Below, one piece after another: positions 6,406 through 9,317 of a stretch of 64,000 nucleotides of DNA. The stretch spans positions 124,001 to 188,000 of the forward strand of contig WLOQ01000001.1 in assembly GCA_009699245.1 (NCBI GenBank), written 5' to 3'. The position numbers and the translations under genes are program-made. The stretch is from Actinomycetota bacterium. GTDB taxonomy: Bacteria; Actinomycetota; Thermoleophilia; Solirubrobacterales; Solirubrobacteraceae. Within the stretch, counting starts at the first letter, position 1; every line of letters begins with the position of its first letter. The notes under the pieces are model-generated. The model was given only the letters and a program-made list of their open reading frames with translations. It was not told the DNA's origin and made no database searches.

Positions 6406-8835
<2,430 letters not shown>

Positions 8836-8838
8836 TCA

Positions 8839-8888
8839 GCTGACGTGAAAAACCCCGGTCCCGGACGTCAGCGAAGTCCGATCCGGGG
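8839..8888 (-). promoter_or_regulatory. gyrB leader with mutually exclusive hairpins (possible attenuator)
   Basis: In the transcript direction, CCCCGG (8888-8883) plus CGGAC (8880-8876) can pair with GTCCG (8866-8862) plus CCGGGG (8858-8853), directly followed by UUUUU (8852-8848). This is a classic intrinsic terminator that ends only about 20 nt before the gyrB start. An 8-nt segment GCTGACGT (8872-8865) lies in its loop and 3' arm and is perfectly complementary to ACGTCAGC (8846-8839) downstream of the U-tract. Pairing there would break the inner terminator stem. It could be a regulated attenuator, or simply the recF-dciA terminator packed against gyrB. Confidence 0.5.
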
Positions 8889-8908
8889 AACCGTGTTCAG
8901 TTGACAGA

Positions 8909-8914
8909 AGAATA
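8909..8914 (-). promoter_or_regulatory. Probable -10 element of the gyrB promoter
   Basis: On the minus strand TGCTATTCT is an extended -10 element (hexamer 8914-8909). Initiation about 7 nt downstream would give a leader of about 70 nt that includes the whole hairpin at 8839-8888. No good -35 box is visible. Confidence 0.4.
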
Positions 8915-8996: not shown

Positions 8997-9317
8997 TCAG
9001 CGCGACCTTCTCGACCAGCCCCGCGAGGGCACCGACTGACAACGCAGTGAGGTGATCCGTTCGTCGCCGAGCGCGGCGTTCACGCGATCGATGATCCCGG
9101 GGGCCAGGAGGTCCAACTCGTGGGCCCAGACCGCGCTCGTGCAGGTGACCGTGAGAACGCCCCCAACCTCACCCGTCGGGGTCGCCTCGGCTGCGATGCC
9201 CTCCCCCGCCGCGGCCGCCCAGATCACCTGAATCTCGTCCAGGGTGTTCGCCGGCCGCAGGCCGGCGACGAGATTGTTGACGGCCTCCGATGCCGGCCGC
9301 AGCCGCCGGTGCGTCAT
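8997..9317 (-). CDS. dciA: DUF721 / DciA family protein
   Basis: 106-residue DUF721 protein. The family member DciA is a loader or operator of the replicative helicase DnaB in bacteria without DnaC/DnaI, and the gene commonly sits behind recF in actinobacteria. Visible features are the helical N-terminus (AVNNLVAGL), a central IQVIWAAAAGEGIAAEA matching the family pattern around the conserved Trp, and a VTCTSAVWAHELDLLAPGII segment. The ATG overlaps the recF stop by 4 bp, so it belongs to dnaN-recF-dciA. The C-terminus is short and basic. Confidence 0.85.
   Translation of the reverse strand: MTHRRLRPASEAVNNLVAGLRPANTLDEIQVIWAAAAGEGIAAEATPTGEVGGVLTVTCTSAVWAHELDLLAPGIIDRVNAALGDERITSLRCQSVPSRGWSRRSR

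Follow-up and report, generated by a model that had tools for sequence, protein, structure and literature searches.

Organization of the gyrB locus

The window, the whole stretch of 64,000 nucleotides that was analysed, belongs to a genome of 1.95 Mb that is 99.4% complete and consists of 19 contigs. According to the list of open reading frames, the genes dnaA, dnaN, recF, dciA, gyrB and gyrA follow one another on the minus strand. The identities of gyrB and dciA were confirmed by profile searches, and the other gene names were assigned by eye. The gene for DNA gyrase subunit B, gyrB, occupies positions 6406-8829 (NF011501, 1062 bits with a cut-off of 796; TIGR01059, 967 bits with a cut-off of 882), and its best named match is a Gaiella sp. 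record with 55% identity. dciA lies upstream of it at 8997-9317, also on the minus strand (PF05258, E = 5.7e-16). The interval between the dciA stop codon (8997) and the gyrB ATG (8829) contains an extended -10 element, a hairpin, a T5 tract and a weak Shine-Dalgarno sequence.

The extended -10 element of the gyrB promoter, TGcTATTCT, is situated on the minus strand at 8917-8909 (TGc at 8917-8915 and TATTCT at 8914-8909), upstream of the hairpin, as an earlier note on this DNA had described. Transcription is predicted to start 6-8 nt downstream of it, at 8902-8901. The minus-strand hairpin spans 8888-8853 and has an outer stem, 8888-8883/8858-8853, in which CCCCGG pairs with CCGGGG, and an inner stem, 8881-8876/8866-8861. 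The T5 tract (U5 in the RNA) is located right behind the stem at 8852-8848 and is separated by 18 nt from the ATG at 8829; both the hairpin and the UUUUU ahead of gyrB, reported in the same note, can be read directly from the sequence. The weak Shine-Dalgarno sequence on this strand, TGAGG at 8838-8834, corresponds to CGGAGG in the alignment consensus.

Taken alone, the hairpin is marginal, having an energy of -22 kcal/mol and a z-score of -1.99, with 10 of 200 shuffled sequences folding as well. Being only moderately unusual by itself, it requires the relatives for a decision. Folded together with the beginning of gyrB, the leader shows no advantage over shuffled sequences (z = 0.20), and a generic scanner of the window did not list the leader hairpin. 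A search of the window with Rfam 15 returned only three tRNAs at the gathering score, leaving the leader without a family; near it there is one sub-threshold match of 13.4 bits (gathering score 49, E = 0.87).

Leaders of related genomes

Of 61 genomes, this one and 60 relatives, 54 have a match to the gyrB N-terminus, as do 130 of 146 genomes of the family, this one included. A total of 144 leaders were read, 127 from the family and 17 from other families of the order, leaving out three of 130 places in the family (G072, G074 and G119; truncated or at a contig edge) and six of 23 at the order level. The pattern TGNTANNNT precedes the start codon by 72-104 nt in 115 of the 127 family leaders, where about 3% would be expected by chance with equal bases; its letters are conserved by construction, because the pattern served for leader selection. 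The alignment A1 comprises 115 leaders, including four from genus g42 that have no hairpin. The 29 excluded leaders are the 17 from other families and 12 family leaders without the -10 pattern in range. Most rows of A1 show the -10 element, about 20 nt, a GCCCCGG...CCGGGGC hairpin, a pyrimidine-rich tail, ACGTnA, CGGAGG and the start codon. When applied to this sequence-only alignment RNAalifold predicted only four pairs, the signal being spoiled by one-base shifts.

Alignment A1 and a hand-specified structure of 7+5 bp were the basis of a covariance model, R1. It gave 122 matches in 119 of the 146 family genomes, 116 of which have exactly one match (the 115 leaders of A1 being the training set), and it later matched six of the 12 family leaders excluded from A1. 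Five of the 25 family genera have no match. Three genomes have a second match, situated elsewhere in G019 and G125 and antisense at its own site in G100. Extra leader copies in the family genomes are thus limited to two partial ones, in G019:C178 (E = 0.0075) and G125:C52 (E = 0.02), and the antisense match. Weak partial matches away from gyrB, covering the hairpin, the tail and part of the Shine-Dalgarno sequence, are seen at G019:C178:1324-1377, G125:C52:803-856 and G323:C137:26583-26639.

Because most of the family sites had trained R1, the other families are its real test. Among 299 genomes of the class scanned with the model, 15 genomes of the order outside the family have a match at E ≤ 0.1, 12 of them at E ≤ 0.01. 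In all 15 the best match is positioned shortly before gyrB, about 160 nt or less from the protein match; ten of these sites were checked directly and five were placed from the coordinates of the gyrB search, and the match in G060 is partial. Two more genomes of the class have weak partial matches (E = 0.069 and 0.084); in G247 the match lies away from gyrB. No match was found at 80 gyrB loci of diverse bacteria, used as a negative control, nor in the two genomes that carry leaders L032 and L035. By eye, several order-level leaders, for example L009, L014 and L225, have no clear hairpin. The leader hairpin is not universal in the order.

Pairing and covariation in the hairpin

Structural alignment of the R1 matches at 100 loci gave the alignment A2, with 99 leaders (97 from the family and two from family f2; L222 was missed). 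The significance of the hairpin rests on this comparison: the mean z-score over the 99 aligned leaders is -3.09, and the stems covary. The outer helix is paired in 97.5% of the cells of A2, with five of its seven pairs changed on both sides, and the inner helix is paired in 58.5% (99 leaders). When the partners are slid by one to three columns, pairing falls from 81% to 32-53%. The covariation score is 0.216 against 0.143 in shuffles, none of 500 being as high, and four of five covariation measures exceed all 500 shuffles; these counts are biased in favour of the structure, since A2 was fitted to it and consists of related rows. The fifth measure, the number of further pair types, is not above its control (27 against 24.8, with 98 of 500 shuffles as high). 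The earlier note had proposed to examine two pairings for covariation; the hairpin bears this out by its outer pairing and compensatory changes, and the alternate pairing discussed below does not.

In leaders L145, L147, L152, L180 and L198 of genus g9, a small inverted repeat resembling CTGCGT...ACGCAG was noticed by eye at or near the ribosome-binding AGGA, 3' of the hairpin.

Promoter and upstream box

The distance from the TG of the extended -10 element to the stem is 26-31 nt in all 99 aligned leaders. Further upstream, the relatives have a promoter box, TTTGCAGGNATTT, which is present with at most one mismatch in 57 of 143 leaders (1, 0 and 0 in controls). A degenerate copy, TTGCGCATTT, was read by eye on the minus strand of the window at 8964-8955, about -58 from the predicted start. 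The pattern search with TTTGCAGGNATTT did not recover this copy, the best match in this genome having five mismatches and lying elsewhere. Among the 98 leaders that have both the box, at three mismatches or fewer, and a -10 element, the spacing from box to TG is 34-37 nt in 87, 46 nt in five, 23-25 nt in five and 118 nt in one. In ten leaders the box is displaced by roughly one turn of the helix, which suggests that a protein may be bound near -58.

In the genomes of relatives the box is a multi-copy sequence: 13 genomes contain 73 matches, compared with 12 for a backward control. It is above the control in 12 of the 13 (G315 excepted), and the gyrB site is among the matches in eight. Several of 20 sites that were fetched are near tRNA 3' ends or within terminator-like repeats. 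L330 and L332, about 11 kb apart on one contig, have the same TTTGCAGGNATTT box beside a complete and a truncated copy of a tRNA gene, as seen by eye, an arrangement that resembles the borders of an integrated element.

Tail of the hairpin

The leader has both parts of an intrinsic terminator, a GC-rich stem-loop and a U-run 3' of the stem, the latter being absent from several related genera. A run of four or more T (T4+) is present in all 11 leaders of the same genus and in nine of ten leaders of g4, g8 and g20. Over the 99 aligned leaders there are at least four T within eight nucleotides in 45 and a T4+ run in 20. The leaders of g41 (20 leaders), g39 (seven), g6, g11 and g40 have neither, and the hairpin is retained there. 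At least four T in eight are found in all ten order-level leaders matched by R1. The 8-nt tail contains 41% T, compared with 24-25% in the adjacent 8-nt stretches; its position 2 is T in 95% of leaders, and positions 3-5 are T or C in 80-92%. Between the T-tract and the Shine-Dalgarno sequence there is a conserved ACGTnA, which termination does not explain. The pattern ACGTMANCGGAGG, covering tail and Shine-Dalgarno sequence, occurs 20 times in ten of 11 genomes, five times at gyrB, and so does not mark the module.

This genome has few T4+ runs: both strands of the window and of 381,844 bases beyond it (445,844 bases in all) contain 80. A hairpin of -10 kcal/mol or better precedes 37 of them, and by energy the gyrB leader ranks fifth in this set. 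Such runs are frequent in the AT-richer congener G004 (48 in 40,000 bases), which makes the run less telling there. A scan of 244 kb of this genome, with gene calls made by our own script, gave seven hairpins with a T-rich tail outside called genes, among which the leader alone has at least four consecutive T at the stem end. A looser scan of the same 244 kb showed no enrichment, with 76 hits against 90-106 in five shuffles. The rarity of T4+ runs and this lack of enrichment indicate that canonical terminators seem to be little used at gene ends in this genome. The strongest hairpins at convergent gene ends gave no usable set of terminators with which the tail could be compared.

The 18 nt between the T-tract and the ATG contain no TANNNT, so transcripts begun at the conserved -10 element must cross the hairpin. 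The absence of the T-tract where the hairpin is kept suggests a role that may not need a canonical terminator. The scatter of T content would fit either erosion of the U-tract of an ancestral terminator in part of the lineages or an additional role of the hairpin. The main rival to a partial terminator is a hairpin that does not terminate, that is, a structured 5' UTR element acting beside or after transcription, in mRNA stability, pausing or the spacing of the ribosome site, with the U5 incidental and termination negligible. We regard this as possible, but rather doubtful. The hairpin does outlast the T-tract, as all 27 aligned leaders of g41 and g39 have fewer than four T in eight, and many of the stems in these two genera are lengthened to 9-10 bp. 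The tail motif ACGTnA is conserved and the distance to the start codon is fixed, the outer 3' arm ending 20-24 nt before it in 93 of 115 leaders. However, about 14 unpaired nucleotides are predicted before the stem, which would protect the 5' end poorly, and the Shine-Dalgarno sequence lies outside the hairpin in most fold models. The constancy of the T-run within the genus, despite the rarity of such runs in the genome, also speaks against an incidental U5.

Beyond the order, four of 19 class-level gyrB leaders (L348, L352, L355 and L356) carry, between gyrB and a -10-like element, a hairpin of unrelated sequence with a T-run behind it. These hairpins, which were found post hoc, have energies of -8.6 to -10.8 kcal/mol, with 0-2 of 40 shuffles as good; the hairpins in the remaining leaders of the 19 are absent or less convincing. 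The four leaders may be taken as a hint in support of a terminator near gyrB.

Two other features were noticed in distant leaders. A box, TTTGCAGG, occurs close before the gyrB start and 3' of a -10-like sequence in L352, L355, L356 and L032; in the first three it is within a small hairpin followed by a T-run. Family f9 (L342-L347, L349, L351, L353 and L354) has a different, long gyrB leader with a conserved sequence resembling GGAGGTCGGAGGTTGAAGGAGCGCAGCCCTG; most of these leaders have a T-rich block, and their consensus fold is weak.

RNA hairpin or DNA operator

The outer arms, GCCCCGG and CCGGGGC, have nearly identical letters in most rows, as would be expected if the inverted repeat were a protein-bound operator acting at the DNA level rather than an RNA hairpin. 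This is very improbable in view of how the pairing is kept. Changes in the outer helix preserve a standard pair by substitution on one side in 33 cells and on both sides in 19, against 17 unpaired cells. The variable interiors also pair better than shuffled ones: with the outer arms fixed and the interior shuffled, the real interiors have a mean z-score of -1.24, 89% of them being below zero (Wilcoxon p = 1e-15, uncorrected for relatedness). The effect is weak in genus g14 (mean z = -0.28). This genus has a shorter hairpin, in which the same 3' arm has another 5' arm as its partner, implying that what has been kept is a strong hairpin ending at a fixed place.

Association with gyrB

When all reading frames are tested, 132 of 144 loci have a DciA-like frame upstream of gyrB and in the same orientation (the longest upstream frame alone identifies DciA in only 90 of 144). 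This arrangement would allow the hairpin to be simply the terminator of the dnaN-recF-dciA unit, the plain alternative named in the earlier note. The gap between dciA and gyrB varies from 114 to 359 nt, however, while the hairpin stays fixed relative to the -10 element and gyrB, and the conserved -10 element is upstream of the hairpin. Moreover, the box, -10 element, hairpin and tail are all present where the upstream neighbour is divergent, namely a transketolase gene (PF00456) in L205, L210 and L211 and a gene for a DUF6444 protein in L187. Because the hairpin holds its position when dciA moves or the neighbour is divergent, this reading fails and is to be regarded as highly improbable. The stretch 8917-8830 is gyrB's own promoter-leader module. 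The comparison of leaders establishes this module, its conservation and covariation, its association with gyrB and its independence of dciA.

Complementarity between the hairpin and its tail

A segment just downstream of the T-tract, ACGTCAGC at 8846-8839 on the minus strand, is an exact complement of GCTGACGT at 8872-8865 within the hairpin, and ACGTCA within it is the conserved tail motif. Only 1% of shuffles have a complement as long. The complementarity, correctly described in the earlier note, had been taken there as the basis of attenuation through a competing pairing. The same eight pairs recur only in the nearest sister, L003, with identical letters, so that two of the 11 leaders of the genus have the pairing, and in the other nine the longest complement between interior and tail is 3-5 nt. 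Leader L005, from another genus, has an 8-bp complement in a different register. In the register found here, three of the 115 rows of A1, this one included, keep seven or eight of the eight pairs. The longest complement has a mean length of 4.06 nt in the 99 leaders and of 4.04 nt in shuffled tails; the alternate pairing put forward in the note does not rise above chance and is no conserved antiterminator pairing. The order of synthesis implies that the 3' half would be transcribed after the T-tract, too late for an antiterminator. With a downstream half made after the decision point and a pairing missing from nine of 11 leaders of its own genus, attenuation switched by 8872-8865/8846-8839 is scarcely credible despite the matches in this sequence, L003 and L005, and it is refuted by the note's own criterion, loss of the pairing in relatives.

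Proposed mechanism

The reading that we favour, with about even confidence, is that in this genome the hairpin is a promoter-proximal partial intrinsic terminator for gyrBA, dependent on factors or on rate and operating without an alternative fold. RNA polymerase would start at the extended -10 element, near 8902, and produce about 14 nt of unpaired RNA followed by the GC-rich hairpin and the U5. Part of the polymerases would stop at about +55, releasing an RNA of about 55 nt, and the rest would continue into gyrB and gyrA. The fraction reading through would be set by the polymerase or by factors, such as elongation rate, NusA/NusG or template topology, and by no RNA switch. Gyrase output may thus be throttled just after the onset of transcription.

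The leader of this genome, from 8902 to 8830, contains no ATG, GTG or TTG before the gyrB ATG and hence no reading frame for a leader peptide. There is no conserved sensor domain before the hairpin, as only about 14 nt of RNA precede the stem and the interior is variable. The lack of a start codon, together with the lack of a conserved second fold among those tested, makes it unlikely that the leader is switched by refolding of its RNA or by a leader peptide. Sensing of supercoiling or of polymerase speed by the gyrB leader is speculation.

The attenuator of E. coli ampC is an intrinsic terminator that is promoter-proximal and has no alternative fold. The gyrB leader resembles attenuators of this type in having a promoter, a short leader, a GC-rich hairpin with a U-run and then the Shine-Dalgarno sequence of the gene; it differs in that the target is gyrBA and in that the U-run is missing from some relatives. 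Text searches of the open-licence literature by title and start of abstract gave no paper whose subject could be recognised as a terminator in the gyrB leader.

Partial termination by hairpins lacking a U-tract is reported for mycobacteria in excerpts of one study, where the M. bovis polymerase is said to need at least an imperfect U-tract in vitro (PMC5335608), so that the U-less form is disputed. The GC-rich hairpins of g41 and g39, which have no U-trail, resemble the I-shaped U-less terminators of mycobacteria as these excerpts present them, while the genome analysed here differs from them in having a U5 (PMC5335608). Supercoiling-sensitive gyr promoters are described, again in excerpts, for Mycobacterium (PMC3436766) and Streptomyces (PMC5055605). 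These offer a comparison for topology-linked control of the gyrBA operon, but the excerpts place the control at promoter activity and clearance (PMC3436766, PMC5055605), unlike the control proposed here for the leader. The word "terminator" is absent from the main text of the Streptomyces paper (PMC5055605).

Cells cannot do without gyrase, and its expression has to be matched to DNA topology. A conserved hairpin locked to the gyrB promoter across families of the order makes early termination a further layer of this control that can be tested. That the hairpin persists while the U-tract comes and goes is relevant to the dispute over U-less terminators in GC-rich bacteria. It is conceivable, if unlikely, that the helically phased box, the extended -10 element and a leader terminator without an alternative fold act together throughout the order as a topology-linked rheostat of gyrase. 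If so, relaxation of the DNA would change both initiation and the fraction of polymerases passing the hairpin, and the homeostatic control of gyrase would extend to a step of early termination.
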